Shown one piece after another: positions 23,814 through 62,872 of a stretch of DNA of 64,000 bases (positions are counted from its first letter, which is position 1; each line of letters starts with the position of its first letter). Source of the DNA: Clavelina lepadiformis (Eukaryota; Chordata; Ascidiacea; Aplousobranchia; Clavelinidae); the NCBI RefSeq assembly GCF_947623445.1, contig NC_135243.1, positions 18,918,479-18,982,478 of the forward strand. The letters run 5' to 3'. Under the pieces are notes generated by a model. It searched no databases. It was not told where the DNA came from and saw only the letters and a program-made list of their open reading frames with translations. A program made the translations under genes and the position numbers.

Positions 23814-23939
23814 TTAGTTGATGAATGTTTTTTTGTCATGGAACCAAGCCAATCCATAATCGTTTTCATTTGAATGTTTAACAAGCCATGGTCTGATGGT
23901 CATGCTTTGCTCATCTCTGACAATATTTTGACTTTCCAT
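23814..23939 (-). pseudogene. Inverted partial copy of IRF-B exon 1
   Basis: On the minus strand an ATG opens a 41-codon frame that starts MESQNIVRDEQSMTIRPWLV, nearly the same as the first exon of IRF-B (MESQNIVSDEQGMTIRPWLV). It runs colinear with it to about KKTF and then stops two codons later, where homology ends. No splice donor or remaining IRF domain follows, so it is a truncated duplicate of the first half of a DNA-binding domain. The frame is undamaged within the homologous part, which suggests a recent copy or gene conversion with IRF-B. Confidence 0.8.
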
Positions 23940-24263
23940 TGTCTCTTATCTAGCTTAAATTCTTCTTCAGAACAAAGTAAAGTTGACAAATAGTTAGGAC
24001 TTCAGCTTTGTTACGTCTCTAAGAATAAGCATATAAAAGCAGACTAAATTAAAAACATCAGAATAAAAAGAATAGTAGGCCACTTATAATGGAAGCTTCT
24101 ACCAGGGAACTAAGCATGCAGACAGGAATTTTCTGTTAGTAGCATACTAAACGCCATGGACCCGTGACTATGATTAACATAATTGATCAAACTTCAAAGG
24201 CTTCTGCAAGATTTAAAAGTTTTGTTGAAAACAGAAACTTTTCTTTCCATGCTGGGAGTATGG
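23823..24263 (-). repeat. Left arm of large inverted repeat (IRF-B promoter plus exon 1 start)
   Basis: Reverse complement of 24812-25262 with scattered substitutions and small gaps. Shared blocks include TTGACAAATAGTTAGGACTT, CTAAGAATAAGCATA, AGGCCACT and CTTTTCTTTCCATGCTGGGAG. The arms are about 440 bp and the centre of symmetry is near 24540. Confidence 0.85.
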
Positions 24264-24811: not shown

Positions 24812-25262
24812 AATGGGGAACTCCCAGCATGGAAAGAAAAGTTTCTGTTTTCAATAAAGTTAAAATCTAAATCGTGCAGAAGCCTTTGAAGTTTGATCAG
24901 TTATGTTAGTTATAATTACGGGTCCATGGCGTTGAGTATGCTACTAACGGAAAATCCCAGTCTGCATGTTTAGTTCCCTGGTAGAAGCTTCCATTATGAG
25001 TGGCCTACTATTCATTTTATTCTGATGTTTTTAGTTTAGTCTGCTTTTGTATGCTTATTCTTAGAGACGTAACACAGCTAAAGTCCTAACTATTTGTCAA
25101 CTTTACTTTGTTCTGAAGAAAAATTTAAGCTAGATAAGAGACAATGGAAAGCCAAAATATTGTCAGCGATGAACAAGGCATGACCATCAGACCATGGCTT
25201 GTTAAACATACAAATGAAAACGATTATGGTTTGGCCTGGTTTGATGACAAGAAAACATTTAT
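24812..25262 (+). repeat. Right arm of large inverted repeat, carrying the IRF-B promoter and exon 1 start
   Basis: Partner of 23823-24263. It includes about 330 bp upstream of the IRF-B ATG and about 119 bp of its first coding exon. The upstream part is therefore probably a promoter present twice, facing in opposite directions. Confidence 0.85.
24829..24853 (+). promoter_or_regulatory. ISRE-like element upstream of IRF-B
   Basis: GGAAAGAAAAGTTTCTGTTTT lies about 300 bp before the ATG. On the opposite strand it reads AAAACAGAAACTTTTC, close to the GAAANNGAAACT consensus bound by IRFs. The same element is kept in the inverted arm near 24233-24255. Autoregulation by IRFs is inference. Confidence 0.35.
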
Positions 25263-28200
25263 CAAAATTCCTTGGCCGACATCAGTACATCATCCAGATT
25301 CAGTAAAAGATTTAAAAATTTGTGTGGTGAGTGCTAATGTATTAAAGAGTTACTAAGCAAGTGATATTTTATGTGTATTGTGTATAATAATAGTATGGTA
25401 AGGTACCAGTATTAATGTATAACGAAAATAGTTTGCCAAATTTTTGACATTTTAAATTTATTAGTTACCTATGTTGTTTGAACCTATGGAACGTAAATGC
25501 TGATAATTTGATTAAACTGTGAATTACATGAACGATTTTAAAAGTACCGTAAGCACATAGACCTTTACCCTTTTCCATCTTCAAATCTAGTTTTGTTGTT
25601 TGCATAAATGTATGATGGGTTTAATATCATGCATCAACATACATTATAAAAAGCTCCAAAATCATTTAATATGTTACAACAATTTACTTAATTCAGCATT
25701 ATTACCTGCATTATTATTACTACTAGCTATTATTATTTTTAAAATAATATTTTTATTACTATTTTACTACATAATTATTATTACTACTATTATCTGCATT
25801 ATTAAAACCTTACTGGTATAGAATAAAAACAACTTAAGTAAATATAATTGGATCTGTATAAATACCAAGAAATTATCATTCAGCGACTCTCAAACCAACC
25901 CCAAGCTAGCTTTTCTTATCAGTGAAATCAGTATTTGTTATACTTTTATTTATGGAAATAAAGTAGAATCCACTTAAGGAGCTGTCAAACACCAGAAAAT
26001 GCCATAAAAGTCTTGTTTGTGTTATTATGCAGTAAATTTACTAAAAATGTAATTACTCAAAAAAGTTCGCATGGAATTTCTAAAATTTTGCACATAGTTT
26101 TGGTATGCATTGGACTAACCTTCCATAAAATTCAAAACATTTTTCAGACTTTTGTAACAGAGGCACAAAATCAACAGCAGAATTGTTGGCCTAAAACCCA
26201 ATTTTAGCTATTCTCATGGCAATTTTTAGCCTAAGTCTGCATGTGAACTAGAACATTCAAGCACGCCAACTGCTAGGGTAATACCCAGGCTAAAAACAAA
26301 GACAAACTATACCGCCCTCTGATTGGTCTAGTCAAGTATTTAAATGCTTTCGTTAGAGTCCAACAGAATCATAGAGATCTTAGTTTTACCCTGTCTGATT
26401 CCTTCTTAATATGACCACATGCTTTATATGATCATTTTGGTGTGGTCCCAAATTTTACCATAAAAAGTCTGTTTACTATGAACAGTCTTCGAAAATTTTT
26501 TACCACTTCTTAAAGTTAAAAAAAGTTTCGTTGCAGTTTTGATTATTTTGACCATTCGGATATTATAAACAAAATAGTCTGGTCCCAAGGTGGCAATAAT
26601 AAGTGGAGTCTAAAGTGCTGTTTTACTTAACTTCCTAATTTTACACTAGATTACATACACATTTATGTATATTGTATTTATGATAATAGAATAAATATAT
26701 ATATATATATATGTGTGTATTATATATATTACACTTTACGTTATAATTTTTTTAGTTTGTAGACCTTTGTTCAAACTGTACACATGATGTCATATTTATA
26801 TCTATGATATGATATGTTACAGGCCTGGTCAAAACACAGAGGAAAGTACAGTGAACCCCCAGCATATTCCAAAATTAAAGCAAGATTTCGTTGTGCTTTA
26901 GACAAGTCAAAACATTTTGATTACAGACAAGACTTAAGTGAAACAGATCGCCAGTTTGGTAGTTTTAGGGTGTATGAGCTTAAAAGCGGATCTAAAAGCA
27001 AAGGTATATATACAAGTGTGGAAATGTTCAGCAGTTGCATTAAAAACACCGATATCGTTCATAAATTTATAATGATAGCATGCTCTTGTCACATTACTTT
27101 TTCAATGTTTGTTGTGTTTAGATGTTAAACCAAAGAAGCAGAAACGGCCTCATCCACATATAGATGATCATCCATCTCTGAACAATTCAATTGAAGCACC
27201 TCAATGCAAGGATAATTTGGGACCATTTGGAAACTGTCTAATTCCAGTAAGTGAGGTCCACATATTAAGTTTTGCGCAAAGATTTACGGTAATTATTTTC
27301 AGATGTTATTATTTACATATAATTTATCATTGGTGAATAACGTTTTTTTATAAAGAGTATACGCAGTACAATGAACAGTGTATGTACCTGCTTTAGTTGG
27401 ATAAGTATGTTGTGGAGTTACTTGAAAGTAGGCTTAATACTGTAATTCTAAACCCAAGCGCTATTGATTATGTCACAACAATGTTAGGATGTACATAATG
27501 GTTCTAATAAACTAAAACACTTGACTTCTATATTTTCATACATTTTCTGTTACAGTTGTTTGTGTAATGTTTTAAACATATAACTAAAATTGTTCTTAAT
27601 TCCACTAAATTGGTTTCTAGATGACTTCTAACCCAGCTGATCCACTTGCATTAACCCAAGGATTTATGCAAAACATAGAACAACCAGTTGATGATTTGTA
27701 CCATAGCAGTTTATATCTACCAACTCCGCTAGAAGCAAATTATTTGCCGGTTGAAGCTCTGGCAAAATCTCAGCAAAATTTTGAAATTAATGAAATGGAT
27801 GCTGAACCTAGTAACCAATTTGGTAGAAAAGTTTTATTACACATAAGATTTAAATTAAAGTTGTTTTGACAGGTTTAGTTATAAACTTTACTTTATTTAC
27901 TATTTACTTTAAGCATTTACCAATATTTGAGACAACTCAAGATTTGGCAATGAAATAAGAAAAATATAAAAAAGTATTATGTTTGGAGAAAGTAGCATTT
28001 CGCCTGTCTACTATAATCCAACATGCTGTTTAGAAAATCTATTTTAAATTTCAGGTACAAGCAATGGAACTATAGGTTTTACTCCAGTTACACCACAGCA
28101 TGAAAAGATTTTGAATCAGAAATTTGATTTTGTTGGTAAGAAAATTTTAGTTTTTTAGGACATAAACTTATTTAAAGCTTTTTGCTATTCCAAGTAGTTA

Positions 28201-29201
28201 GACCGACAAACAACTTGTGAGTTACGGTGTTAACTTTCAGACAAGACTGTGAAGTATGACAATGAGCTCAATATACATACACCATGAATCGTTTTTTTAA
28301 ATACATTTAATACTGAGGTTAACGTGAACAAGTTATTATAGTTATTAGTAAATGTATGCTTTTGAAATGGTTTGTTTTCTTTTGCTCAGCAAAGAATCCT
28401 GAAAAACTTGCCCAATACAAGATGTGTGTCTACTACAGACAAGTTGGAGAATACAATGTGCCCATCATAGAGCAGATAAAGGAAAACTTGCTGCTGGACC
28501 TTTCTCATTCAGGTGCCCGGTTGTTATATGGAGACTTCAACACAACCTCTGGTTTTCAGGCTGCTGATGAGGCCCCAGAACAATCTTATCCGCTACCAAA
28601 AGCAAATACCATAAACCCTGAAATAGCTGTGGAAAGTACGCTGGTTGGCAAAGTGCTGAAAAATTTTGATGGTGGCATTTCCTTTTGTATGGATGAAAAA
28701 CACAATCTTAAGGTAACAAGGCACTGTCAGAGTCAAGTGTTTTACTTTGAAAATCCTTCCATTAATAGCAACAGCATCAAAATGAATCAGGGTGAACCAA
28801 TCATACTGTTTTCTTTGGAGAATTACATCAATGAATTAATTCGATTTAGTCGTGAACTGGGTGCACCCAAACCGGAAAAAATCATACCAATTGTTATTGG
28901 CAGCAAGCCTAAAACCTTGACTTCAAACGCTTTGGTTCGAGTAACATTTGAACATGTTCTCGCCTCTGACTTAGAAAAAAGGTTTGGAATAAGTGACAGC
29001 CTTCCACAACTTGCTGTTAGTAATCCACCCTCTAATGCATCTAATCGAGCGGCTGGTTTTTTAAAAATGCTAGAGGTAAATGACAGTTTGCCAGAATTTA
29101 CGTTTACGCGCCAATCCCCTAATGCATCTCACCAATTAGACGAGTTGAACTCATTCCTAGAAAGTCTATATGAGTATGCAAACATAGATACAGCAACATA
29201 A
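25144..29201 (+). CDS. IRF-B: interferon regulatory factor-like transcription factor
   Basis: Six exons: 25144-25326, 26823-27003, 27122-27246, 27621-27822, 28055-28135 and 28390-29201. All are GT/AG and sum to 527 codons plus stop; the exon 4 donor (TTTG|GTAGAA) is weak. Exons 1-2 form the IRF DNA-binding domain with Trp in RPWL, LAWF, IPW and AWSKH, and the recognition helix RFRCALDKS, which keeps the Arg-Cys pair of canonical IRFs. Exon 3 is a basic linker (KKQKRPHPH then DHPSLNNSIEAP), plausibly a nuclear localisation signal. Exon 6 is the IAD, with VLKNFDGGI and FSLENYI blocks. The tail reads DSLPQLAVSNPPSNAS, aligned with the phospho-activation segment of IRF3/IRF5. A second related unit, DSLPEFTFTRQSPNAS, follows. 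The gene begins inside an inverted repeat. Confidence 0.92.
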
Positions 29202-33309: not shown

Positions 33310-33620
33310 TTTCAATCACATAGGGGTTTTTTCGAATTCGGCAATTCATAATGCAATGTAAATAACATGTTTACAAAATGGGATGACAAGTATGGGTTAT
33401 CTTAGTACAATAAGTTCAAAAAAGCAAGGTAGATAGCATGTTTACGGAAAAGATTGTCAATCAACTATTCTTCGATAAGCTAACAATTAAACCGTGAACT
33501 GAAAATGAACGTATGGCAAGCATGACGTTAGGTAGTAGCGCGTAAATAGCAGAAATATAATTATAACGACACAACTTGGAAGGCGATGGAAACAGCGGCT
33601 TCCAACGGGAACAAAAATGA
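33310..33620 (+). repeat. Start of IRF-C/IRF-D segmental duplication, copy 1
   Basis: Matches 45345-45640 along its length. Shared blocks include TTCATAATGCAATGTA, GGTTATCTTAGTACAAT, TTGTCAATCAACTATT and ACAACTTGGAAG. This shows that the duplication joining IRF-C and IRF-D includes flanking DNA several kilobases upstream of the genes. Confidence 0.8.
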
Positions 33621-34174: not shown

Positions 34175-35144
34175 CTACCCTCGGACGTTCCATAAATTGT
34201 AACATAGTCTTTGCACAGCGAGCATTAATGGGGGCTCTTTTCTGAACAGACGTATTCCATTAATTCTGAATTATATGCGACTTTTCAAAGAATGTCATGT
34301 AATAATAATTCTTTGAAATGATGTTGGCCATCTTTTGTTTTCGCAGACACAGACCTTAGGTTAGAAAGTAAAGGTTCGTAAATTTACTAGCGAGGCATTT
34401 TGTTAAAACTATCAATTCCATAATCCCATTTACTCAGAACATTGAGAAGTGGAACAGGAAAGATTTTACAGAACAAAAATGAACCACGACTATAAGAAGG
34501 TTGAAAACTCCTGCATTAGAACACGGACGTCTTCTTTTTTGCACGACCAACGAGAGCACAGTTAAGGTTGTGATGACATTAATACACGGAACATATACGA
34601 TATAAAATTCTCGTCTTCGAGTATCGAGTCAGCGAAGCATAACATAACGTATCAATGATTTCCTGCTTATCGTTTTAATTCGTAGCATTAAATATCATGC
34701 CTATATTGCGTGAGTTATTTTTTCATTCGTGTACTAAGAAAATAGCAGCGTCATGGTTGCAGCAGCAGCTTAATGCTGTTGCTGTGCTAATTATTTGTGA
34801 AAATGTGTTTGTTCAAAGACGCTTCAAAATAATCAGCTTATAGCCTACAGTTGTCATTCCTGTGTAACAATTGTGAATTCAATTTAAAGAAGTTCAGTGT
34901 CAAGTTAGACAACTTTGTTGTCATCTTCACAAGACAATAATTCGTTAAGGTGAACAATTAAGTCCAAGGTTGAGAAAAGCAGACAACGACCTTATGATAC
35001 TCATACATCATCACCCGCAATAAACAATTCAACAAGCAAACATTGTAGTGAAGTGAATTAAACTGTCAAGTTCAGCTACTATATACAACCCATTTCATTA
35101 AAAGGTGTTTTACAAGCTTTGCGTAACTTGCATTATTTTTATAT
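34175..35144. other. Intergenic within the duplicated unit
   Basis: No gene seen. Similarity to the IRF-D upstream region is patchy here and becomes clear again near 35110. Confidence 0.35.
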
Positions 35145-35157
35145 GTGAAAGGAAAGG
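35145..35157 (+). promoter_or_regulatory. ISRE-like site upstream of IRF-C, displaced by the P element
   Basis: GTGAAAGGAAAGG resembles an IRF-binding GAAANNGAAA element. The paralogous site GTGAAAGGAAAAG occurs at 46702-46714, about 350 bp before IRF-D. Here the 2.8-kb P element lies between the site and the gene. Function is inference from conservation and motif. Confidence 0.3.
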
Positions 35158-35529
35158 CTTAGTTATTTAGTACCACGCCCATAGACACCTTAAATAGAAG
35201 GACTGGTAACTTCTATGCTCGGTATCTGGAACTTGGGTCCCAAGTTGGAACTTGGGTCCCATCATAATTTGTGTCAAATACATGGTAAAACCTTCATTCT
35301 GGTGTCTCTTGGGGGGTTTTGAAGGGTGAGGAATTACTTTTTCATACTTTTAACCTTCTACAAGGTCATCTGAAGGTCATCTAAAGGTCAAATCACGAAA
35401 AAATAGTCCAAAATCACTCAAAATATTGCATATTTTCCCACTTAAACAACTGAAACACACAGTATGTTCCCCTGTGACTGAATTAAAATGTATTCATGGA
35501 CAGTTTAGCCTGAATATTTCAACACGAAC

Positions 35530-35629
35530 AATGAAATTTGTGAAACAACAATGAAAAACAACAACAAACAACAATGAAATTTGTGAAACAACTATGAAAA
35601 ACAACAACAAACAACAATGAAATTTGTAG
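35530..35629 (+). repeat. 43-bp subterminal tandem repeat in the P element
   Basis: About 2.4 copies of a 43-bp unit beginning AATGAAATTTGTGAAACAAC, followed by AACAACAACAAAC. It lies between the transposase stop and the left terminal repeat. Confidence 0.8.
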
Positions 35630-35673
35630 AAATGAGTAATCAAAATACTTGTTGGCATACTAAAGATACTTGT

Positions 35674-37131
35674 TCAGTTTTTAGTAGAGAGTTTTTCTTT
35701 TCTTCTCAAACAGCCGAGTTGTCTTTCTTTGTCACTGTTGTCAAGCACAAATGCTTTCAAAAGAATGTTTGATAAAGTAAGACATGCTCCTTGAATTACA
35801 ACCATTGGACTGTCGATACGACGCAAAGCATGGCTGAGATGAGCTCGGCAGCAATGCAAGTTGCACTTACCAAACAGTTTATAGGCTGAGTGTACAAAAT
35901 GTACTGTTGAGAGTAGAGGTACAGTTAGTCCACCTCTATTTAAGTTTGTGAGAAACTCCGAATTAATCCGATGGTCGTCATCATTTTCAGTTTCGATACA
36001 CAAGATATTAGCTGGATATTTGTGTTCCAAATATCCAGCTAGAAAAATACATTTATGCTTGACACTGTCATTAGATTGCACTAGGTCTTCAGTGTCAGCA
36101 ATGGTGATGTCAAATTGATCATCATCAATGCAAATGTTAGAGGTGCAAGGCACATCATGAGACTCGCACGGAGTTGACTCATATTTTAAAAGTGCATGGA
36201 GATTTTTGGTTTTTGCAGCTGCCTTGATATCTACAATGTCAATATAGAAATTACCTCCACTGCATTGTCTGGCTTGACCAAAGAACTTTTCAAGGGCCTC
36301 ATCAGCAAACACACCAGGTAGAACGTAGATGAAGTTGTGCTGAGTCAGTAGCAACTCTGCGGCTTCGATGTTGGCTCTTGTAGACACTACAAATGCTTCT
36401 GCAGTTTGATTAGTAAGCTTCTGCGTCCGACCTCGACCACCTGACCATGCACAAGAGGATATAATGTCACAAGTTTCATTAAGTTTCTTGAAACTAGTGC
36501 AGTTCTTGGTCCATGGTTGACGACACTCATCACGCATGTTAATACCAGAATATCGATCAATAAAGACTTTACCAGGGCCATGTAATTTACCATAAACTGC
36601 AACATTTGTATTGCAATTATCACCTACACAAGAAATTATACTACCACCAGCATTTTTTACCGCTACTAGAGCTTCCAATAGAATTTTCTTGAGTTGATCT
36701 GAATTAAGTTTTGCAACAGGGTAAATGCGTAGTATATATCTAGGGCCACCAAAATGGCAGACAACTTCAATCACCAAAGCATGTGTTGCAAGAACTTCGG
36801 TATCACCAGAACCATTTTGCGCATAACCAACAACACGACCACCTGAGTACCTAAGTGTTTCTGTGAGCTTTACTTCATCAAAAAGAATGTTGACGAGACA
36901 CTGCTGAGGTTGAAGCTTTTGGAAAAGTTGCTCTAAGTTTTCATCATGGAAACTACAGGAGAGTAGTTTTTTCAACAGTTCCACTCTCGGTAAAACAATT
37001 GAACCGGACTTTCGTACCATTTTATATGCAGCTGGAGAAATGTTATGAAGTTCGGCAGCAAGAATATAAAGATTTTTGTTGATTGAACGATTGAACGCGT
37101 TGAAAATGAAGAAATTGAATAACAGAACGTC
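35674..37131 (-). CDS. P-element-type transposase, catalytic part
   Basis: A long minus-strand frame, convincing from about NKNLYILAAELHNISPAAYK onward. It contains the P-element/THAP9 core: NILFDEVKLTETLRY (first catalytic Asp), SCVGDNCNTNVAVY (second Asp region) and the C-terminal NRGGLTVPLLSTVHFV block. It cuts and joins the transposon ends. The N-terminal THAP domain is in a different frame just upstream with about 170 bp of frame overlap, so either a small intron or one frameshift separates them; no strong splice pair was chosen. Length (about 480 residues from the switch) is shorter than THAP9. Activity is undetermined. Confidence 0.85.
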   Translation of the reverse strand, partial: DVLLFNFFIFNAFNRSINKNLYILAAELHNISPAAYKMVRKSGSIVLPRVELLKKLLSCSFHDENLEQLFQKLQPQQCLVNILFDEVKLTETLRYSGGRVVGYAQNGSGDTEVLATHALVIEVVCHFGGPRYILRIYPVAKLNSDQLKKILLEALVAVKNAGGSIISCVGDNCNTNVAVYGKLHGPGKVFIDRYSGINMRDECRQPWTKNCTSFKKLNETCDIISSCAWSGGRGRTQKLTNQTAEAFVVSTRANIEAAELLLTQHNFIYVLPGVFADEALEKFFGQARQCSGGNFYIDIVDIKAAAKTKNLHALLKYESTPCESHDVPCTSNICIDDDQFDITIADTEDLVQSNDSVKHKCIFLAGYLEHKYPANILCIETENDDDHRINSEFLTNLNRGGLTVPLLSTVHFVHSAYKLFGKCNLHCCRAHLSHALRRIDSPMVVIQGACLTLSNILLKAFVLDNSDKERQLGCLRRKEKLSTKN

Positions 37132-37597
37132 CTTTTGCATCAGTTTTAGAAATGTAAATGTCATCACTATCACAAAAAAAAAGATGATCCTTTGAGAAAT
37201 GCTGCTTGATTTCATTACAAAAAGAAGAAAAGTCAGCTATCTTATCCAGGCCTTCAGTACGGAATCGTTCCTTTTCAGCTCTCGCCTCTGCTGAAGCAGT
37301 TCTAGGCCTAGTTCTGGGTGCTGAGGAGACCTGCTTTAAGCATGACTTTAAAACTCCAGGGAAAATGGACGGTGGTTGGCTTGGTCTTTTTCCACCTTTA
37401 ACTGAAATCCATTTACAGTCAAAATGATTAGCACAAGCATAGATCTGCTTAAGCTGTAGCAAACTAGAACGTTCATTTGGCATGGCATCAATCCAGCGGT
37501 TTCGTTCTACTTCATCAGTTGGAAATGATACCACTTTAGAGTACGGTTCCTCCCTGTAATTGCCTCGACAACCATATACATTACATTTCTTAGGCAT
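37043..37597 (-). CDS. P-element transposase, N-terminal THAP domain
   Basis: The minus-strand frame starts MPKKCNVYGCRGNY. It shows the C2CH THAP zinc-finger pattern (Cys5, Cys10, then ACANHF) and ends the domain with a PPSIFP motif corresponding to the AVPTIF box. THAP fingers bind transposon ends in P elements. The last about 30 codons of this open frame are probably not protein, because the homologous transposase sequence continues in the next frame. Confidence 0.85.
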   Translation of the reverse strand: MPKKCNVYGCRGNYREEPYSKVVSFPTDEVERNRWIDAMPNERSSLLQLKQIYACANHFDCKWISVKGGKRPSQPPSIFPGVLKSCLKQVSSAPRTRPRTASAEARAEKERFRTEGLDKIADFSSFCNEIKQHFSKDHLFFCDSDDIYISKTDAKGRSVIQFLHFQRVQSFNQQKSLYSCCRTS

Positions 37598-37956
37598 TGT
37601 GTGTTATTAACAGAGACCCCTGAAAAAACTTTGTTCCGATTATGAAATAGAAAAAAAGAAAAGTTGCTTTAAAAAATTACCCTACTCTATCGGCATTGCC
37701 ATAGCCTATAATTGGTTTCATCGTCACATGTGCTTATTTATCAGCTATTGAAGCAGTTAGAAAGCTTTAAAGTCACATATGCTTGTCTGCATGCCTTATT
37801 TTAAATATTTATACAGTTCTTTTCCAAAATTCAAAAGATTCGCGGCACACCTGAGAATCTGTGACGGCGCACTAGTATCTGTGATTGGGACCCAAGTTCC
37901 GTAACCCGAGAGTGCGAGTTACTAGTCCTTCTATTTAAGGTGTCTATGACCACGCC

Positions 37957-38267
37957 TGAAAATGGACTACAAGAAGAGTAAAGTTTGAGATTGGCAAAAT
38001 TAAAACAACATAAGATGTTTATAGATTGAAAGTTTGTAGGTTATTTACCACGGGAATAACCCAGCTTTGAGAGTCCCAAACATGAAAAGAGGAACTGATT
38101 TTCATTTTTTGACATTCTCACTTAGTCAGATTCTTGCTTTTTTACTAGTTCAAGTTTACCTTATTGCTTTATAAATTCCTTCATTTACAGAATTATTTAT
38201 TAGATACAATGTTTTAGCTTCTCATTTACCAAGTATAGTGTGGTGGAAAGTACACCGATACAGCAAT
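37957..38267 (+). promoter_or_regulatory. IRF-C proximal upstream region, conserved with IRF-D
   Basis: Closely matches 46770-47060. Conserved blocks include AAAATTAAAACAACATAAGATG, split as AAAATTAAAACAACATAAG plus ATG, TTACCACGGGAATAACCC and ACATTCTCACTTAGTCAG. TTCATTTACAG near 38190 could be a 5' UTR acceptor. The near identity marks it as the core promoter or 5' UTR of both genes. Confidence 0.5.
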
Positions 38268-41200
38268 ATGGATGAACAAGGTAAAAAGCTTAAACAATGG
38301 CTTGTTGATCACACCAATCAAAACCGTTTCCGATTGAGTTGGGATAATGAAGATAAAACAAGGATCAAGATACCATGGCCGAAAGTTGGTGATCCAAATT
38401 TTGAACAAAATTTAGAAGTTTGTGTGGTAAGACCAAGTAGAATAAAATTTCCTCATACTTTTGAATGATTAGCAGAGTGAAGTCTGAAAGTGAATGTATT
38501 TCAGTGTCTTTAGGTAGTGACCCAGGGTTGGAAGCCGTAAAGTGCAACGACCATAGCGGAAAGTGTGTATGATTGCAGAATTGCCCCATATCATAAGCAT
38601 TACCTTGACATTGACATTGGCATTGGCATGGCATAAACTTTGGCATTACATTTGTTGGTGCATTTATTGGGTGCTCTAAAGGCAAACTTTCCATTACGGT
38701 TCAATGGTAAAATTTTAGGTCACAAGGAGCCAATTTTCTTGGACAAATTGCTAAAAACTGCTTGTAATATCATGTTCTTTAGACATCCTCAGAAAAAAGA
38801 GCACTTATTTGCTTGAAATTCATCAAGAAATCATTCATTGTAACAGAAACACCATAGCCATTCACTTCATTAATGGGCTGTTATAGGATAGAAATGTTGA
38901 ACATTAATTTTTCGTTGTATAAGCTCATGTAAAAACTGTCATGATCCTGAAGTTTAAAACTGCTAATCTGGCAGGCCACATACAGTGTATAGAACTCTTT
39001 CAAGGGCTTAAAAACGATTCCAATTTTTTACAAAACTTAGGCCAAGTATTATGATGTGGCACTACTGCTTTTGCTACAGCACTGCATCAAAATTTTGTCT
39101 AGCCTAATCTCGTACAACACAATAACTCACTGGTATTCAAAATATTCAAAGTCTGCATTTGTGGTTACAGGCTTGGGCTAAGCATGGAGAAACATATACC
39201 GAACCAATGAGTACGGAAAAGTATAGTCAGATGAAAAAAAGGTTTGCAGATGTGTTGAGAAAATCAAGATATTTGGAGAAATTGGAAAAAATTAAGCGTC
39301 AGTCTGGTGACTTCGTAGTGTATGAGCTTTTATCAAGACCCAAAAGTAATGGTGAGACTTGTTCATCTGCTTTTATTTGCATTACGTTAAATTACGTGCT
39401 GTTATTTACTTTCTTGGTGCCAAGTGTCATATCTTATATTGCAGTGTTTCTTTAAGAATTTAGCATTCAAAAGTTTTCATATTTATTAAATTAGAAAGGT
39501 TAAATATTTAGCTCAACAGCAGCTTAACTCTAACCACTATATTCTATGTTGCAAATTATTTCAATTTGCATTTGAACTATGTGTTTAAAGGAAATTGAAA
39601 TCATTTTCTACATACTTTCTAAAAATGGACAAAATATGTTGATTGCCTAAAAGTAGAAGAAATTACTTTATCTTTTTTTTGTTATTGGCGAGTTTTTATT
39701 ATTGGCAAAATCGTTTTCAAAAAAATTTACCGGGAATGGATGTGACGTTACTGGTGTTGTTGGTGTTCAAGCATGGTTCAATCAATCATGTCAGATCAAT
39801 GGAAAGTTGCTGTTTCATGACTTGTTTTGACAAATTTATTGTGCATGTTGAACATTTTTTATGTCATTGCAATAATGGATGACTGAACAATTATATGATG
39901 TGTTTTTAATGAAACAAGTATTATCTGAATATGCGTTGTGTGACGTTAGCTCCAAGCCTAGCCCTCAGAAAATATATAAAGTTTTATTAAGCCTATTTGG
40001 CTTTTTGCTTTTCAATAATTTTTATTTTTATTTTGATCTTAAGGCCATTTCAAAACGAGATAATGCGTGGATTAAAAATACATGGCATTTATTTTAAAAA
40101 AGAAACTTTAGCTTACAATTCAAAACACTTTCTCACTCAACTGTTGGGTCTAGTAGTGCCGAACAACCTGACATAACAAATTGACTGAAAGAGGTGAAGT
40201 AGGTGAAGTAGCTGAAGTAGCTGAAGTAGCTAATGTAAAACGTGGTACTGCACGTCTTTTCGTTCACAGTCCTGCAACTTGACAATCAAGTTAACCTAAT
40301 TTTTGGTCATTTAGGCAATTTTTATCTTAAACAATGTTTTGTCACATTTGGTAAGATCTAAAAGTCTGCATTTATGAATATTACTGAAAAGCTGAAAAAG
40401 ATAAAGAAATTTTGTTTACATTTTCGGAATCAACGAATTTTTACCCTTTTTTGGAAAATAGATTAACTTCATGAACGCCTTAAGTTCCCATTTCATTAAT
40501 CAGAATTAACCTGCCTTTTAGTCATAATAAACCATATGTCAGTAAAACTAGGTGTTTTACTGTTTTCAAGATCCGGGAAAGATGAAAAACCAGAAACGCT
40601 CCCATCCACATTCCAGCGATCATCCGTCTTCAAATAATTCATTTAAAGCACCTTTAAGCAAAGTTCAGAACCCTACATTCCCTGAACATGAGGCATGTGG
40701 GGACACAAAAAAACAGGTGAATGTTTACTTCTGTATTTAGTTTACTTGTCCTGCATTGGATTTGAAATAAAGTGATCATTACTGGATATATCATACAACA
40801 CAGATTAAAATTTACTAGGGATGTGCTGAACACGAGCTTCACCAATTTTCAGTGTTCTCACCAACTTGTGGGAGCGCTTCACTCCCAGATTTATATAAAT
40901 GTTTGTTTTTTGTGCAAATAAAAAGAAAGTGCAATATGTTATTGTCAGAAATATTTTTTCAAAGAGAATTGAAGAATAATATATTGCCATGCGAAATTAT
41001 GCTGGCTTTGTTTGATACTTATCTTTGGTAACAATTGGTTTTTCTCTTGCAGTAAAAAAGACAAAAAAAGAAAAGTCCCTAATGAAAAAAGTGTGAAAAA
41101 AAAACCTTAGAGTGTGCAGAAAGTCATGCATATCACGCTCAATCTTTTAATTTGTTTTACTAACCTATGAATTACATGTGCGAGTATATACTATATACCA

Positions 41201-44200
41201 GTTTATGTTCTTGAAAGATCAATCTTATATTTTATGCCAGTAAAATTGTAATTGTAAAATTGTTTTCACTTCATGCAGCCATTTAAATGTACATGGACCA
41301 GGGAGGTATACTCCAGTCTGGATTGTGGGCGTAGCTTACATAATGACGACAATGACATTTTGTTCAAATGTAAACTTCTTTGTTTGTTTTATTATGATGT
41401 CATACGTTCTAGCTCAGTTCAAGTACTCAATAACATTAAAGAAAAAAGCACAAGTTCATGTATTTCTTAATATTCCACGTCTCTAAAAAAGCAATTACAA
41501 CTAAACAATAAATGAATTTTGCCTAAAGTATATTACCCAACAGGTTCGCTCTGTTTATGGAAACAATTAACAAACTTGGAATAGCACCAACATAATGATG
41601 TATTTGCAAATTGTATAAAATTGTGAGGCAGAGTAGTGTTGGAACATTTTTATGTTTGTGTATCTGTATTATCATCTTATTCAACAATTTAAAAATGTCA
41701 ATGATTTTATTGTGTAAGAACCAATCTTAAATTTACACTGGCACTTTAGATGGAGCGTGCCAATCAAGACTGTGTTCAACCACCTTTTGCAACTCATAAA
41801 ATCAATCAAAAAACTTTTGCCCAGCAGCTTCCGACTGGTGAACCACCAGAAATAGGTCAAAATCTTGGTAAGTTTTCCTATATCGGATTTAAGTTTCTGT
41901 TTATTTAGTTTATATTATTGCTGGAGTTTGTATTAGGGCCTTCAAACGGCTGGGAATTTCTGCAGCAATTAGCAGTGGTATAGTTGTAAAAATTATATTG
42001 TCGAAATGATATAGGGACATAAACTCAAGTTTTCATAAGAATTTGTACTAGTCTTAAACCTAAAAAAGTTCTTGCATCGGGACAAATTAAAGTTAAGAAA
42101 AATTGTCACTTGTTTCATGTACAATCGGTTGTTTGTTCTGCTGATTTTGATTTCCAAACTTGAGAAAATAAAAAACAAATAGAAGCTCCACTCAAAAGTT
42201 TTTAATATATCTGAGTGTAAATGTAGTTGCTTTGAAAAGTAAAATTATTTTTGCTACTTGTTTAATAGAGTATAATCAACTAACACTGATTTTCAAGTTT
42301 ATCTGAATCGAATAAATGTCATAACACTCAAGTCAGATATGTGGCATTATGTCATTTTCTTCTGATTATATGATAGGTGAAACTCCTATATTACCATTGA
42401 CCACTAGTCACTTTTAAAATAACTCATCATGTTATTATATAGATTTAATGTTTGTAATTGCAACTAAGCTTAGTGAAAAATTGGAGTTGGTACTTCATTA
42501 TAATCTAATTCAATAGTGATTTCCGTTGAAAGTGAAATGAAGAAAATTGCTTCACAAATAGTTGCAGAATGTTAGCTGCGTAATCATGATAAAGTTTTCC
42601 AAAGTTATTTCATTGTGATAATAAGATTTTAACTTTAAACTTGATTTTGGACTATGATTTCTGTTCTGAGCCAGTTTTTATTTAAGTCTTACCAGTTAGA
42701 GTGATCAGTATTAAATAGTAATGTAAGTATTCGCTGTATACTTGAAGCGAAGTTCATTCATTGTTGCTAGGTGTTCAAAGTAGGAAGCAGAAACGGCCTC
42801 ATCCATGTATAGATGATCATCCATCTCTGAACAATTCAATTGAAGCACCTCAATGCAAAATTGACAATTTTGAACCACTTAGGAATAGGAGAAGTGAATT
42901 TTTTGTAAGTATTGGCCACCTAATTGTATTTCTAGAGTTCATGCATTGCAGTATGGAGTTATGGAAAAATTCTTGTTAATGTTAATCTGCTATTACTTAA
43001 TATATTACGGCCTATTTGTGCTGCACATTACATTTCTTATTGCCTTGGTTATTGAAAATCAAGCATATATCACTACAGGGTCCTAATTTAAGTCACAACT
43101 TGGAGCCAATTAATTGGTTAAATTATTATGTTTTACTACATGTAATTTTTACTATATTTTCATTCTGAACAACGGTGTTGTACACATTAAAAACATTTGA
43201 AGAAATTTATTCAGACATACAGTTTCTATCTGCCCAATGGTCTTATCTTTGATGTTAAATGAGAACCGCAACCTATAAGTTCATTTAGTTCACTTAGAAC
43301 TAAGAAAAATAGCAGTATATAGATTTTAATTTAAGAAAAGATGACACTTACTCATCCTAGGATAGTTTTTCAGATAGCATAAAGAAATATTTTGTCAGTG
43401 ATCCCAGTATTTAAGGAATTTTACAGTCTATCAGGTTTGGTTAATTCTAGTATACAGCGTAAGTAGAAACTAGCCAGCAATTTATGGCCATTTATAATTA
43501 TTTTGGTGAAATAATAAAAAAGTTCTGCTGAAAATATTGCCATGTTAACTTTATTTCCCTCTATGTCTTCAGTTGGCCTATTTTGATTTAATTGCTATTT
43601 TATTTTTAGGCGACATCTCGACCAATTAACCCCCCCACATTGATAGAAAACTTGGATTTAGCCGATGACTTCAGTGGTTCACAGTCTTATCATCCAGCTC
43701 CGATTGAAGCAAACTTTCCCCAGTGTCACATTCTAGAACAACAGCAACAAGACCTCCTTTCTAGTTCAGTAAACTTTTATTAGAATTCAACAGTTTTGCT
43801 TCTTTAGAAAGTAAACCTAAGTGCGTTTGAATGCTTATTTGTCATTTTCACATTGCTGATTCCATTGGCAGCTAAAAACAATTACTGAAAACGTTTCAGC
43901 GGAACTTATTTGGAACAAGTTATCAATATATATACATAAACAGTGCAACATCTATTCATCAATCTTTTTTACCTTTTGAAATTCAACTTTGATCCAAAAA
44001 TAAAATTTCTTAATTGAATTTAAAGGCACAAGAAATGGAACTGGACTTGACGTTCCTATGATGTCACCACAAGAGGAAAATCTTGTTAACTGGAAATTGG
44101 ATTTTCTTGGTATAAAAACGAAATTTTTCATTTTACCAATTTCTCAAACATTTATAAAGCAATTTTTGTGGCACAAATTATGCAGCTTTAACTGTTTAAA

Positions 44201-45137
44201 TTAAGATATTTTCAGGGAATAGTGATTAATATATCGTCCAGCATTTGAATTTAAATGTTTTTATTTTGTTATGAGTAAACACTATAACTCTGTAACGGTA
44301 CAGCAAAGTTAAAACAGAATTTGACATTTTGTATGCGATTTGATTTTAGTATTAAATCATTCACTTGTAGAAAGATATTTTATTGCAGAAAAACACCCTG
44401 AAAAACTATCCCGTTACAAGATAAGCGTCCACTATAGGCAAATCAGCAGGGAAACCCTCGAACCAGTCATAGAGCAGAGCTTTGATAACTGGAAAGAACT
44501 TGACTTTTCTCATCCAGGACTCCGGCTGGTCTATGAAGATGCCAACATATCCTCCTGTTATCCATCTTTGAACACAACCAAAGAACAGAAGTATGTGTTA
44601 CCTGCTGCAAAGACCGTAGATCATGAAGTTTCTCTATGCCGAACTATGGTGGGGGATGTATTGAAGAATTTTGATGGTGGCATCTCCCTAATCGTGGATG
44701 ATAAACTCAATCTTTATGTAACAAGACACCCCCAAATTAGCACAGTTTTTTACTTTAAAAATCCTGTCAATAGTTGTAGCAGCAGCACTAAAGTTAATCA
44801 AGGAGAAACCGTTATTCTATTTTCTCTTGCTAATTACATCATTGAGTTGATTCAATGTAGATCAAAACAAAGTACTTCGAAACCAGTGAAAAGTATACCA
44901 ATATTTATCGGTAATAAGCCTAAAACCTTAGACTCAAACGCCTTTGTTCGAATTACAGTAGAGCATGTGTTTGCATCCATGTTAGAAGAAAGATTTGGAA
45001 GAAGTGATAGTCTTCCAGAACTAGCACTTAGCAATCCATTGTCCATTGGATCACATAATTCATCTAGCTTAAGTTCATCACTTCTGGAGGACGTTGAAGA
45101 AATTCTTTCTAACATGTTGGTTAAACAGAACCTTTAA
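38268..45137 (+). CDS. IRF-C: chimeric interferon regulatory factor-like transcription factor
   Basis: Eight exons: 38268-38426, 39171-39351, 40571-40716, 41750-41867, 42771-42904, 43610-43763, 44026-44109 and 44389-45137. They sum to 574 codons plus stop; the exon 6 donor (TCTA|GTTCAG) is weak and was chosen on phase. Exons 1-4 are almost the same as IRF-D: DNA-binding domain, basic linker KNQKRSHPHSSDHPSSNNSF, then the MERAN exon. Exons 5-8 match IRF-B: a second linker exon (RKQKRPHPCIDDHPSLNNSI), the IEAN exon, the NGTG exon and the IAD (VLKNFDGGI). The joint keeps phase 1, so the chimera reads through. The recognition helix is RFADVLRKS, without the canonical Arg-Cys. The tail SDSLPELALSNPLS resembles the IRF3/IRF5 activation motif and is followed by a Ser-rich stretch. 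The ATG was preferred to in-frame non-ATG starts upstream. Confidence 0.85.
40194..40231 (+). repeat. 9-bp tandem repeat in IRF-C intron 2
   Basis: Four copies of a GTGAAGTAG/CTGAAGTAG unit, followed by diverged sequence. Confidence 0.8.
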
Positions 45138-45344: not shown

Positions 45345-45640
45345 GCAACTTATTTCGAATTCGGCGAGTTCATAATGCAATGTAGATAATATGTTTATAA
45401 AATAGGATGGCAATTCATTAGGTTATCTTAGTACAATGAGTTCAAAAGTGCAAGGTGGATAACATGTTTTCGGAACAGGTTGTCAATCAACTATTTTTCC
45501 ATTGGATAACAACTGTGTCGTGAACCGAGAATGAACTTATGGCAGGTATGACATCATGCAATAATAGAGCGGTAGATAGCAGATACATAATTATAACATC
45601 ACAACTTGGAAGACAATGGAAATCGCGTCTTCCACCCCCT
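45345..45640 (+). repeat. Start of IRF-C/IRF-D segmental duplication, copy 2
   Basis: Partner of 33310-33620. It begins at TTTCGAATTCGGC, shortly after the IRF-C 3' end, so the repeated unit starts right behind the preceding gene. Confidence 0.8.
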
Positions 45641-46670
45641 TAAAAAAATCGCCCCCCAACTTCATAAGTTATCACAATTAACCCTTAAAAGACAATATCG
45701 CCCCTGTTGAATAACCCTGGTTTTAACTTTAAAGAAAAGAATTTTAAAATAGCGCAAATCACCTATTTTAATTCATTTCTATTTCAGCCTAAGCCTAAAG
45801 ATCTTAAGTCACTGATTCTTGTGTTTCCTTGTCTGCGATGGTTGTTAGGAATACGTGACCGCCTCCATGAAAGCACTTTTACCGTGTTACGACATGTTTA
45901 ATTATGGTTTCCTCTATTTCTTTTGAAATTATTTAGCCTACTGCTTGTATATTAAAATTTTAACGTTGTGGACTACAATTATTCTACAGATTTCTTTTCT
46001 AGCCTTAGCGCTTTGGACAACTAACTCTTACGATTTTTTTCATAACAAACATTAACAAATAAACATATTTTCAGAAACCAACAGTGTTTTCAGCAAAATT
46101 TGGATACAGATCAAAACATATGTAGACTTGAGTTATTAACTAGAAATGTACTTTACGTTTCAAAAAGTTCCAAAGCTTTTCCGACTGCTGTCGGTTCCTA
46201 TATTTTTTTGTGTTTAGCTCTTATTTCACAAATCATTTGATGTGTGTTTCTTATTATGCCGCCATTGTCACACCCATATTAACAACATAACGATCATACA
46301 GTAAGATACAATGTATATTGCAAAAGTAGAGTACCACTAGTAGGTGGTTCGAATACTAGCTGATAATAACCAAATAAACATATGTACAGAAGTTGACTAA
46401 TTGACAAATATAATATATTTGATTACATCATCAAGTTCATGTAAAAGGACATTATACAAGTTTTATACCACCAATTTTTAAGGAGATAAAAATGTGCAGT
46501 AATAGTTGTTAGCCTATAGTATACTTTTAATTTTAATCACGCAACAAATCGTGATCATATGTATCATTTTAAAAATGAAATATGAACTAACATTCCAAAA
46601 AGCGAGTTTGAATATTCATTGAGTTTAGTTACAAAGCGGCCAACGAGAGCGCTTGGTTTAGGCGTTTGAC
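45641..46670. other. Intergenic, no gene seen
   Basis: AT-rich; no supported exon. Similarity with the IRF-C upstream region resumes near 46670. Confidence 0.35.
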
Positions 46671-47060
46671 AAGGTTTGCCTAACTTGTATCACTTTCGTT
46701 TGTGAAAGGAAAAGCGTAGTACAATGCATTGTTACGAGAAGTGGACTGTTCCTCTGTACAGTACGAGAAGTGTAAAATGTGCATAAGCAAAATTAAAACA
46801 ACATAAGATGTCGATAGGTGTAAATTTTGTTTGATATTTACCACGGGAATAACCCAGCTTTGAGAGTCCCAAATGTGAAAAGAGGAACTGATTTTAATTT
46901 TTTGACATTCTCACTTAGTCAGATTCTTGCTTTTTTACTAGTTCAAGTTTACCTTATTGCTTTATAAATTCCTTCATTTACAGAATTCGTTATCAGACAC
47001 ATTGTTTTGGCTTCTCATTTACCAACTTCATTGTGGTGGAAAGTACACCGATACAGCAAT
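46671..47060 (+). promoter_or_regulatory. IRF-D upstream region, uninterrupted counterpart of the P-element site
   Basis: Aligns with both sides of the P element upstream of IRF-C (35110-35179 and 37949-38267) without the insertion. It contains the ISRE-like GTGAAAGGAAAAG at 46702-46714. The last about 200 bp are nearly identical to the IRF-C upstream sequence. Confidence 0.55.
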
Positions 47061-50000
47061 ATGGATGAACAAGGTAAAAAGCTTAAACAATGGCTTGTTG
47101 ATCACACCAATCAAAGCCGTTTCCGATTGAGTTGGGATAATGAAGAGAGAACAAGGATCAAGATACCATGGCCGAAAGTTGGTGATCCAAATTTTGAACA
47201 AAATTTAGAAGTTTGTGTGGTAAGACCAAGTAGAATAAAATTTCCTCATACTTTTGAATGATTAGCAGAGCGAAGTCTGGAAGTAAATATGTTTCAGTGT
47301 TTTTAGGTTGTGACTCAGGGTTGGAAGTCGTAAAATGCAACCGCCTTAGTAGAAAGTTTGTATGATGTGCCAATTTTTTCCTGCACATAAAGCTTGTTCC
47401 AGCACCCATTATCTGGCACAGAATTGCTGTGTTGCCCTATATTCTATAATCTATATTATAAGTATTACATTGGCATGGTACAAAAGTTAGCATTAAATTG
47501 ATTGGTGCATTTATCCGACTCACTGAAGGCAAACTTTCCAGTAGCATTCAATGGTCAAATTTTGGATTACAAACAGCCATTTATTTTTGACAAATTGCCA
47601 AAAACTGCTTGTAATATCTTACTCTAAAACACCTGCAGTTAAAGGCAAGCTCATTAACTTTTATACAATTTTGCCTGATTCAAGATTTCTTATTATTCAA
47701 AGCAACGATACTAGTCTTGCTGAAACACCCAACAAAAAGATCAAAAAGTAACTACAGATAACTCAGAGATTTTGTAGTCCTCAAAAATATTCAAAGTTTC
47801 ATTTGATATTCAAAATATTCAAAGTCTGCATATGTGGTTACAGGCTTGGGCTAAGCATGGAGAAACTTATACCGAACCAATGACTACGGAAAAGTATAGT
47901 CAGATGAAAAAAAGGTTTGCAGATGTGTTGAGAAAATCAAGATATTTGAAGAAATTGGATAAAATTGAGCGTCAGTCTGGTGACTTCGTAGTGTATGAGC
48001 TTTTATCAAGACCCAAAAGTAATGGTAACTTGTTCATCTACTTTTATTTGCAGTACACTATTACATGCTGTTATTTACTTTCTTGACGGCAAATGTCATA
48101 TCTTTTATTGCAGTGTTTCTTTAAGAATTTAGCATTCAAATGTTTGCATGTTCAATCTTTAGCAAGATTACATACTTAGCTCAACAGCAGCCTAACCTTA
48201 ACCACTATGTTACATATGGCAAATTATTTCAATTTGCATTCAGTTCTACAGTTTTTATCAAAAAGCAAACAGAGTTAAGCTTCCTTTTAGTCGTAATAAA
48301 GTACTGGTCAGTAAAACTGGGTGTTTTATTGTTTTCAAGATCCAGGAAAGATGAAAAAGCAGAAACGCTCCCATCCACATTCCAGCGATCATCCGTCTTT
48401 AAATAATTCATTTGAAACTACCCTTAAAAAAGTTCAGAACCCTACATTCCCTGAACATGGGGTATGTGGGGACTCAGAAAAACAGGTGAATGTTTGCTTT
48501 TGCATTTAGTTTACGTGTCCTGCATTGGATTTGAAATGAAGTGATCATTACTGGATATATCATACAACACAGATTTAAAATTTACTAGGGATTTGCCGAA
48601 CATGTGCCTAAAGGCTCAGAAAGAGCCTCACCAACTTTAAATGTTCTCACCTACCTCTGGAAGCGCTTTACTCCCAGATTTATGTGCATGGTAGTTTTTT
48701 TGTGCAAATAAACAAGAAGTACAAAATGTTGTTACCAGAGATTTTTTTTCATAGCTAACTAAACATTTATATTGTTATGCCAAATTTGCTGTCAATCTTT
48801 GCAAGCCTAGTTATGCCTACGGTTATTGTGTAGCGTGCCGGCCTCCTGTGACGCTTAATTTCGGTAACATTTTATCTTTTTCCTGCAGTAAAAGAGGCAA
48901 GAAGCAAAAATCACTAACAAAAAAATGCATTGTCATATTAATTCACAATTTAAAAATGTCAATAATTTTGTTGGTTAAAGCCCCATCTTAAGCTTACACT
49001 GACTTTAGATGGAGCGTGCCAATAATGACTGTGTTCAACCACATGTTGCAACTAATAAAATTCATCAAGAATCTTTTGCACAGCAGTTTCCAACTGGTGA
49101 ACCACCAAAAATAAGTCAAAATCTTGGTAAGTGTTTCTCTATCTGATCTAAGTTTCTGTTCATTTGGAGTATTATTGCTGAAGTTCAAAGTAGGACTTTG
49201 AAACGCATGGGGTTTTTTTTGCATAGAGATTGGTAGTAGTGCATAGAGACATTTAAAAGTGAAGTATCTTTCTGCCAAAATTTGAACTTACGAGTAGATT
49301 ATGTAGTCAGATTAAGCAAATTATACTGGTGTAATAATGCAAACAAAAATGTGTATCACAAAGGAAGCAGTTTCCCAAGCTGCCTTGTGATTATTGTATG
49401 TTTTTGTCTGTCTATCTACATCCCATAGTTCCACCATTTTTTTCAGTTTTGGTTTGAAATATTTGAAAATTATCTTTGTTAAGAATTTACTAATAATTTT
49501 GTTAGATTAAGCAAACGTTTCCTTGGTAACCATTTTAACTTCAGGTTCTTGTCTTAATGTTGATCGTAACATGAAATCTACTCCCCAGGAGTTACAGATG
49601 CTTAGCCAACAGTTTCAGTTTCTGCGTATGTACACACTTTAATATCTTTGTGTATGAGATCAATTTATTGCATTGATATACTTCTTTTAAACCAAGTTTC
49701 CGACCCATTTAACTGCCTTATCTTTTTTCATTTATTCAACTCCGGCTAGTCACTTAGTTCTTTTGTAGCTCATTACGAGTTTAATGTTGTTATTTCTAGA
49801 TATATGGCCTGAAGAAGAGTTATTCACTTTTAATATAAGTGTTTCGTACAAGGAAAATGACCACAATGACTATTATGTGCCAATTATAGAGGAGTCATAT
49901 GAGTGGCATGAGGTGAATCTGCACGGTGGCATCCAACTAGTTTATAGTGATACCTCACAATCTACTGCTCAATTGAATCAGAGTTCTCAAGCAAAAATTC

Positions 50001-50500
50001 TAAACCTTCCTCAACCAACCATGATCAATGAGCAAAAGGCTTTCGAAAATACTATTATTAGAATTGCGTTGGAAAAATTTAAGGATGGAATCCTTCTTTG
50101 TATGAATGAGGCCTATGAACTCTACGCAACAAGGAACTGTTTGAGTTGTGTGTATTACTTTGAAGATCCTTCAGTAAATTGCGGTAGCACAAAAATTGAT
50201 CAAAACCAAAGGATTAAACTTTTCTCACTTGAGCAGTATCGTAAAAATCTGCTCCATTACAGAGGCAAACAGAGAAGTGTAAAGCCTGAAAGCAAGATAC
50301 ATATCGTTGTGGGGAATCAACCTAACAGAATCACTTCAAATTGTTTAGTTCGGATTACTCTGGAGCATTGTCTTGCACCTGCATTTCAAGAAATGTTTGG
50401 TAAAGGTGATAGCATTCCTGAGCTTGCTATTAGTGATCCTAATTCCAGTGAATCGCTAAGATCCTTACTGCGCAAGTATGGTGCCCAAATTGATTCATAA
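47061..50500 (+). CDS. IRF-D: interferon regulatory factor-like transcription factor
   Basis: Six exons: 47061-47219, 47844-48024, 48340-48485, 49009-49126, 49545-49625 and 49800-50500, summing to 461 codons plus stop. The DNA-binding domain (exons 1-2) is nearly identical to IRF-C, including the recognition helix RFADVLRKS that lacks the canonical Arg-Cys. Exon 3 is the basic linker (KKQKRSHPHSSDHPSLNNSF) and exon 4 the MERAN exon. Exon 5 (NMKSTPQELQMLSQQF) corresponds to exon 7 of IRF-C. The IAD in exon 6 is the most diverged of the cluster (LEKFKDGILLC where B and C have VLKNFDGGI). The tail DSIPELAISDPNSS contains an exact pLxIS pattern (ELAIS), the phosphorylated motif of IRF3 and its adaptors. 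The exon set matches that of IRF-B, so D probably keeps the ancestral layout. Confidence 0.92.
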
Positions 50501-61317: not shown

Positions 61318-61722
61318 TGTGACGATTACGTCACGAGTCACTAGTTGTTTTGAGCTGTTTGGAATTTAATTTAGAATCCTGTAATTCAATTGTTTACCAA
61401 ACTTGAGTTTTCCTTAATGACGTCAGATAATTTCCTCGCTTGAACTGGTGTGCCATATATAAATCGATGCAATGTTTTCAATCTCCCCTTTTCCTTTTTA
61501 CCGTTTCACGTGTTACTGAGCGCGATGTAACATTCAGCAAGATTTGCCCGAAGGCAAAAGCCTTTGTGTTATAATAAATAAAATGGTACTTTATAAATTA
61601 GTGATATATATAGACAGAAATTAAACAAACAGCAGAAGCAAACCGTTCGAGAAATAACAACCATCTCATCGAGTGAGAAGAAAAACAAGATATCAATTCA
61701 ACGAACTATTTCTTTGTCATAA
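61318..61722 (+). repeat. 5' LTR of a small LTR-retrotransposon fossil
   Basis: Begins TGTGACGATTACGTCACGAG, contains a TATA-like CCATATATAAATC and an AATAAA region near 61578, and ends near TTTCTTTGTCATAA. Nearly identical to the first 300 bp of 62366-62872. Confidence 0.8.
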
Positions 61723-62365: not shown

Positions 62366-62872
62366 TGTGACGATTACGTCACGAGTCACTAGTTGTTTTG
62401 AGCTGTTTGGAATTTAATTTAGAATCCTGTAATTCAATTGTTTATCAAACTTGAGTTTTCCTTAATGACGTCAGATAATTTCCTCGCTTGAACTGGTGTG
62501 CCATATATAAATCGATGCAATGTTTTCAATCTCCCCTTTTCCTTTTTACCGTTTCACGTGTTACTGAGCGCGATGTAACATTCAGCAAGATTTGCCCGAA
62601 GGCAAAAGCTTTTGTGTTATAATAAATAAAATGGGAACTTTATAAGTTAGTAATTTGTATAGACAGAATCAAGCAACTAACAGCATAGTCACGCAAATTT
62701 GAGAAATGAGAACTCATCCATCGAAGCAGAAGTAAAACAAGTTATCAACCATCAATCGTCCTCGCTCACATTCTAACAATAACCGCCAGCATACGCGGTC
62801 TTTATGACAGATATGTTTCTTGTGTAATACCTCACACGAGTAGTGCACAAGCGAATTATTTCTTTGTCATAA
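62366..62872 (+). repeat. 3' LTR of the fossil element
   Basis: Direct repeat of 61318-61722 for about 300 bp from TGTGACGATTACG. It then contains extra sequence before the shared end TTTCTTTGTCATAA. Confidence 0.8.

Follow-up and report, generated by a model that had tools for sequence, protein, structure and literature searches.

IRF genes of the IRF4/5/8/9 type, which combine a DNA-binding domain (DBD) with an IAD1 domain (PF00605 + PF10401), are among the closest described relatives of the gene discussed here; the human representatives IRF4, 5, 8 and 9 have intron phases 0,1,0,1,1,1,0, as given in Table 1 of PMC2885996. A comparison from within the tunicates is offered by the IRF-like genes of Ciona intestinalis, several of which lie on one chromosome arm – three are named 3q – and whose printed phases are 0 1 1 0 1 and, twice, 0 1 1 1 1; no chimera figures among the genes described in the portion of that source used here (PMC2885996).

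The gene considered here, IRF-C, belongs to a cluster of IRF genes in the ascidian Clavelina lepadiformis. The window – the whole stretch of DNA that was analysed – spans 64,000 nucleotides (C4:18918479-18982478), and genome-wide searches covered 209.06 Mb in 95 contigs. One further IRF locus (L022, to the left of the window) and IRF-A lie on the minus strand, followed on the plus strand by three genes:

25144..29201, plus strand: IRF-B, open, six exons, 527 aa; recognition helix RFRCALDK
38268-45137, plus strand: IRF-C, eight exon-like units
47061..50500, plus strand: IRF-D, open, six exons, 461 aa; kin of the IRF-C front

Like the IRF4/5/8/9-type genes, IRF-C has a DBD followed by an IAD, and its exons 1-4, 7 and 8 have phases (0,1,0,1,1) equal to the first five tabulated for the human genes (PMC2885996). 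Unlike them, it shares with IRF-D a recognition helix without the four GAAA-contact residues of IRF1, has the fourth of the five tryptophans replaced, and appears to derive its front and back from different paralogues. With Ciona it has in common that several IRF genes of a tunicate lie together, although the phases printed for that species differ. Among the literature matches listed, neither IRF-C nor any chimeric tunicate IRF was described, which is not proof of absence.

On balance, we think it probable that IRF-C is a real chimera, composed of a D-type front and an older B-like back, and that its productive message skips exons 5-6 as leftovers. Recombination of tandem-array paralogues into chimeric genes has reportedly occurred among the spiggin genes of the stickleback. 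The recombination between tandem paralogues would be common to both cases; in IRF-C, however, front and back have diverged to very different degrees, and the joining intron retains leftover exons. If so, tandemly clustered genes for immune transcription factors can give rise to a novel combination of domains, with unused exons left behind in the intron at the joint.

Exon map and reading frame of IRF-C

The initial annotation had described exons 1-4 of IRF-C as D-like and exons 5-8 as like exons 3-6 of B, so that a linker exon is present twice. This order and homology are borne out by pairwise sites, Ks and DNA homology, as is the description of B and D as six-exon genes: both are open, with intron phases 0,1,0,1,1 (IRF-A has 0,1,0,1,1,1), and exon 4 of A, B and D leaves in phase 1 in each case. 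The units of IRF-C and its flank are:

37968..38267, plus strand: 5' flank, presumed promoter and 5'UTR; 90% identity to D 46762-47060
38268..38426, plus strand: exon 1, DBD part 1, D-like; phase 0 out; 3 nonsynonymous and 0 synonymous differences from D
39171..39351, plus strand: exon 2, DBD part 2, D-like; recognition helix MKKRFADVLRKS; phase 1 out
40571..40716, plus strand: exon 3, first linker, D-like; phase 1 in, 0 out
41750..41867, plus strand: exon 4, the MERAN exon, D-like; phase 0 in, 1 out
41960..42752, plus strand: breakpoint zone; D homology stops at 41959, B homology begins at 42753
42771..42904, plus strand: exon 5, second linker, like B exon 3; phase 1 in, 0 out
43610..43768, plus strand: exon 6, like B exon 4; 159 nt, open; weak phase-0 donor that mismatches exon 7
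44026..44109, plus strand: exon 7, like B exon 5; phase 1 in and out
44389..45137, plus strand: exon 8, IAD and stop codon, like B exon 6; phase 1 in

Intron 3 of both C (41018-41090) and D (48854-48925) contains a lysine-rich stretch behind an acceptor-like site, which might be a decayed extra linker exon.

The further claim that the chimera is in frame held only as far as exon 6. The joint between exons 4 and 5 is phase 1 on both sides, and reading runs on through exon 6, but with homologous splice sites exons 6 and 7 do not match: exon 6 leaves in phase 0 at 43768, the position of B's donor, and exon 7 (44026) enters in phase 1. The distance between the landmark GAAGCAAA, which both genes share, and the donor is 63 nt in C against 91 in B (0 versus 1 modulo 3). 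An eight-exon message spliced at the homologous sites meets a stop at 44059-44061, 11 codons into exon 7 and 48 nt before the last junction, and has 310 codons and no IAD. By contrast, exons 1-4, 7 and 8 join into 478 uninterrupted codons with the phases 0,1,0,1,1 of B and D, a pattern that the eight-exon reading fails to give.

With exons 5-6 included, keeping the frame requires one of three sites of which B and D make no use: donor 43673 or 43676 inside exon 6, or acceptor 44076. Each of them leaves all eight units open to the natural stop (544, 545 and 559 aa, respectively). On a generic donor matrix, not trained on this species, the scores of these two donors are -1.2 and -1.8 and that of the homologous 43768 is -0.4; the exon 5 donor is fair (3.8 bits) and that of exon 7 weak (-1.0 bits). 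Acceptor 44076, located 50 nt inside exon 7, has 9/16 pyrimidines (modelled acceptors: 7 to 13); the acceptor scan ran over 43780-44480, and the additional phase-0 acceptors fall within the IAD exon. The doubled linker that had been envisaged would, in an IAD-bearing protein, call for non-homologous splice sites. Exons 5-6 are probably relics or alternative exons. Their open frames are weak proof of use, because intron stretches of this length can also be open in a given frame (251/4202 at 132 nt, 143/4027 at 159 nt) and the time since the fusion is short; the divergences suggest, very approximately, that 293 nt free of selection would have gathered around one stop and one indel.

Divergence of the front and the back

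C and D are alike over 37968-41959 and 46762-49216: the homology consists of five blocks (74 to 90%) with insertions between them, and it takes in stretches of intron; the first 606 bp of the homology show 92% identity, and the four best blocks have blastn E values of 0 to 3.5e-77. Chance is excluded as the source of this likeness between the fronts. The homology has a sharp 3' end in intron 4, 92 bp past exon 4, and none was found further into the back of IRF-C except that of the paralogous linker and IAD. In the whole genome, 37968-38800 gave 30 matches – itself, two D pieces and 27 short ones due to a small repeat in intron 1 – and block 37968-38573 was matched at length only at C and D. 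A search for the origin of the stretch 41960-42770 brought up, apart from the self match, two fragments of 67 bp on C5 and C6. In C, tblastn (E 0.01) detected neither residual B-like DBD exons nor traces of D-like exons 5-6.

Front exons 1-4 of C and D differ by a Ks of 0.07 (0.072) and a Ka of 0.065 (per-exon Ks 0, 0.03, 0.15, 0.14). As Ka/Ks is about 0.9, with 30 nonsynonymous and 8 synonymous differences, purifying selection on the front protein since the C/D split is not shown. The exons nonetheless diverge less than the alignable non-coding DNA including the 5' flank, with 38/604 against 220/1456 substitutions and 0 against 12 gap events; this holds for nonsynonymous (p 8e-8) and synonymous (p 0.013) sites, and the lower synonymous divergence fits gene conversion as well as constraint.

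The back presents a different picture: Ks between C and B is 0.27, 1.33, 0.39 (5/16.5 sites) and 1.45 for exons 5-8, and that between the IAD exons of C and D (C8/D6) is 2.4. The C/B IAD exons are 68% alike with a Ka/Ks of 0.24. Since the core of exon 5 (42784-42858, B 27135-27209) has 97.3% identity over 75 bp, compared with the 68% of the IAD exons, and its flanks are poorly alike, it points to a short gene conversion between linker exons, which is neutral on the use of exon 5.

Sites at which two of the three genes are identical divide accordingly by half. In front exons 1-4, C=D-only sites number 25, 26, 15 and 19, against 2, 0, 2 and 1 for C=B only and 0, 0, 3 and 2 for B=D only; in back exons 5-8, C=B-only sites number 12, 9, 9 and 62, against 0, 2, 2 and 17 for C=D only and 5, 6, 4 and 27 for B=D only.

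Separate trees, proposed earlier as a check, were built from 9/10 DBDs and 8/11 IAD matches, leaving out L024 (exon 1 not assembled) and the partial IADs at C9:2.81 Mb (two) and C4:22.72 Mb; DBD exon joins outside B, C and D were set by eye. The DBD tree places C with D (100/99) and rejects B+C (p-AU 0.0001). The IAD tree places C with B (83/89) yet does not reject C+D (p-AU 0.155, 8 rows; 0.291 without A and K, 6 rows; 0.152 for exons 5-8, 5 rows). The halves are thus nearest to different paralogues, the IAD topology not being significant by the AU test; in our assessment the IAD tree is outweighed by the abrupt stop of the homology together with the additional B-like exons.

The DNA-binding domain and the upstream DNA

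After splicing, the DBD of C reaches 52.7 bits in the Pfam IRF model PF00605 (D 51.4, B 69.6; cut-off 27) and its IAD 55.7 bits in PF10401 (cut-off 27), although in an exon-by-exon search with PF00605 neither C nor D was among the 15 matches at E 0.001. By alignment numbering, C has four of the five repeat tryptophans, with F at the place of W46 (the fourth) and those of Trp 11, 38 and 58 kept; A and B also have 4/5 and G has 5/5. The C/D DBD thus probably folds as an IRF domain.

What it binds is another matter, although the initial annotation had given the chimera a D-type DNA specificity. The direct GAAA contacts of IRF1 are listed in PMC7819612 as Arg82, Cys83, Asn86 and Ser87. At the aligned places C and D have A, D, R and K (0/4 matching) and B has R, C, D and K; the Arg at the Arg82 place is missing only in C and D, being kept in the other 7/9 aligned DBDs and also in exon 2 of L024, which lies outside that set. 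Because the four IRF1-type contact residues are absent, the C/D DBD may not read GAAA; the probe sequence named for comparing the binding of the C/D and B DBDs is AANNGAAA. For the same reason the protein might act as an IAD-bearing IRF partner, a modulator of other IRFs rather than a classical ISRE activator, and the loss raises the question of whether classical GAAA binding is dispensable for the function of some ascidian IRFs.

The D-like unit also takes in DNA upstream of the gene, which has since been split:

35103..35163, plus strand: upstream DNA common to C and D, 80% to 46660-46720; severed from the gene by the transposon
35180..37948, no strand assigned: DNA transposon whose minus-strand ORFs are THAP and TNP-like; its inverted ends match exactly over 25 bp and are flanked by a target duplication of 8 bp

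The transposon lies 320 bp 5' of the IRF-C start codon, where D has 41 bp, and appears to be recently mobile, since near-identical copies occur on many contigs. In C the D-like unit extends at least to 35103, and no C/D match was found beyond it. IRF-C would have begun with D-like upstream DNA and, because the insertion splits this DNA, its expression may now differ from that of D.

Other matches around the gene were considered as well. That the 61-bp match 35103/46660 is a dispersed repeat was discounted, as the repeat search returned only the match to itself, at a sensitivity that missed even the D copy. Two weaker matches, 31406/46471 and 31649/46401, are not colinear.

Probable origin of the chimera and alternative readings

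The initial annotation had traced IRF-C to unequal crossing-over between tandem paralogues. A single recent crossover of today's B and D would make both halves the same age, and we reject it because their Ks values are so unequal (0.07 for the C/D front, 1.45 for the C/B IAD exon). Of the footprint expected from such an event, like DNA in the B-C and C-D intervals, about 400 bp beside exon 1 stood, transposon-split in C; the colinear 285-bp match 33327-33604 / 45350-45634 fell away, being a dispersed repeat of about 280 bp with at least 40 copies of the first one.

The wide difference in Ks instead makes it likely that the back is that of a B-like paralogue which is older and has no DBD exons of its own. 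The 5' half of a D-type gene, comprising upstream DNA, exons 1-4 and the start of intron 4, would then stand as a copy before exons 3-6 of this old tandem gene, whose DBD exons were lost. In the simplest history, the 5' half of D was copied in front of it, or a whole D copy was followed by a deletion; one breakpoint would fall within intron 4 of D and the other in the intron that precedes the B-like linker, placing the junction, by homology, between 41959 and 42753. That the copying went from D to C we infer from the composite nature of C. Judged by phase and open frame, the productive message most likely runs from exon 4 to exon 7, both phase 1, skipping exons 5-6; it would encode a six-exon IRF of 478 aa with a D-type DBD, one linker and a B-type IAD, whereas inclusion of exons 5-6 with homologous sites would lose the IAD.

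Other accounts of the same exons accept the fusion and differ over the message. That both forms are made – skipping giving the full IRF, inclusion a 310-aa protein with two linkers and no IAD, acting as inhibitor or decoy – we hold to be unlikely, though it is helped by the fair splice sites of exon 5 and the open frames of exons 5 and 6, which may, however, stay open this long without selection. A stop 48 nt upstream of the last junction lies near the usual distance limit for nonsense-mediated decay. Truncated splice forms of IRF-3 in humans (PMC3639176) provide a precedent. More specifically, exons 5-6 might constitute a built-in switch whose inclusion form escapes decay and competes with the IAD-bearing chimeric IRF; we doubt this version, under which debris of a gene fusion would have become a regulator of an innate-immunity factor. 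IRF-C is, in either event, a case for telling relic exons from a new splice switch by RNA-seq. Equally doubtful is an eight-exon protein, with two linkers and the IAD (544-559 aa), in which a non-homologous site restores the frame. The phase-1 joint 4/5, the open exons 5 and 6 and the three variants that reach the natural stop speak for it, as do the scores of donors 43673 (-1.2, hardly below the homologous -0.4) and 43676 (-1.8) and the pyrimidine content of acceptor 44076, which is within the range of the modelled acceptors. Yet every variant requires a site that B and D do not use: the two donors lack the usual +4/+5 bases and would remove sequence of exon 6 that is conserved with B, the acceptor costs 50 nt of exon 7, and the six-exon route requires no site change.

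The remaining accounts question the fusion itself. IRF-C could be a truncated D-like copy (exons 1-4) beside a headless B-like gene, the two having no joint transcript, or a locus dying through transposon silencing, which we regard as improbable: the six needed exons are all open with matching phases, exons are less diverged than non-coding DNA, and the IAD exon has a Ka/Ks of 0.24 against B, though much of that may predate the fusion. Pointing the other way are the front Ka/Ks near 0.9, the lack of any second DBD found for the back and the transposon with its target duplication 320 bp upstream, by which the gene may have been silenced; intron 4 also contains AATAAA/ATTAAA motifs (42086, 42167, 42311, 42710) that could be counted with these, but such motifs are common (17 in 38427-44388). 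We likewise have little confidence that C and D are plain sister duplicates whose fronts were kept alike by gene conversion as their backs diverged. The IAD tree does not reject C+D, and exons 1-2 are more alike than exons 3-4 (synonymous differences at 1/~63 versus 7/~53 sites, Fisher p 0.02), a contrast that suggests some gene conversion between the fronts. Such a history, however, leaves the extra B-like exons 5-6 and the abrupt end of the homology in intron 4 unexplained, and the back has just 21 C=D-only sites against 42 that are B=D only.

Partial 5' duplication has at least one further instance at the locus, an inverted copy of the 5' end of B: upstream DNA and most of exon 1 recur at 23818-24259 versus 24820-25265, with 92% identity over 446 bp and about 560 bp between the copies. 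Downstream of the IRF cluster, two minus-strand ORFs at 54935-55582 match enoyl-CoA hydratase/isomerase (PF00378), and 61318-61696 / 62366-62748 form a direct repeat of about 385 bp with 92% identity.
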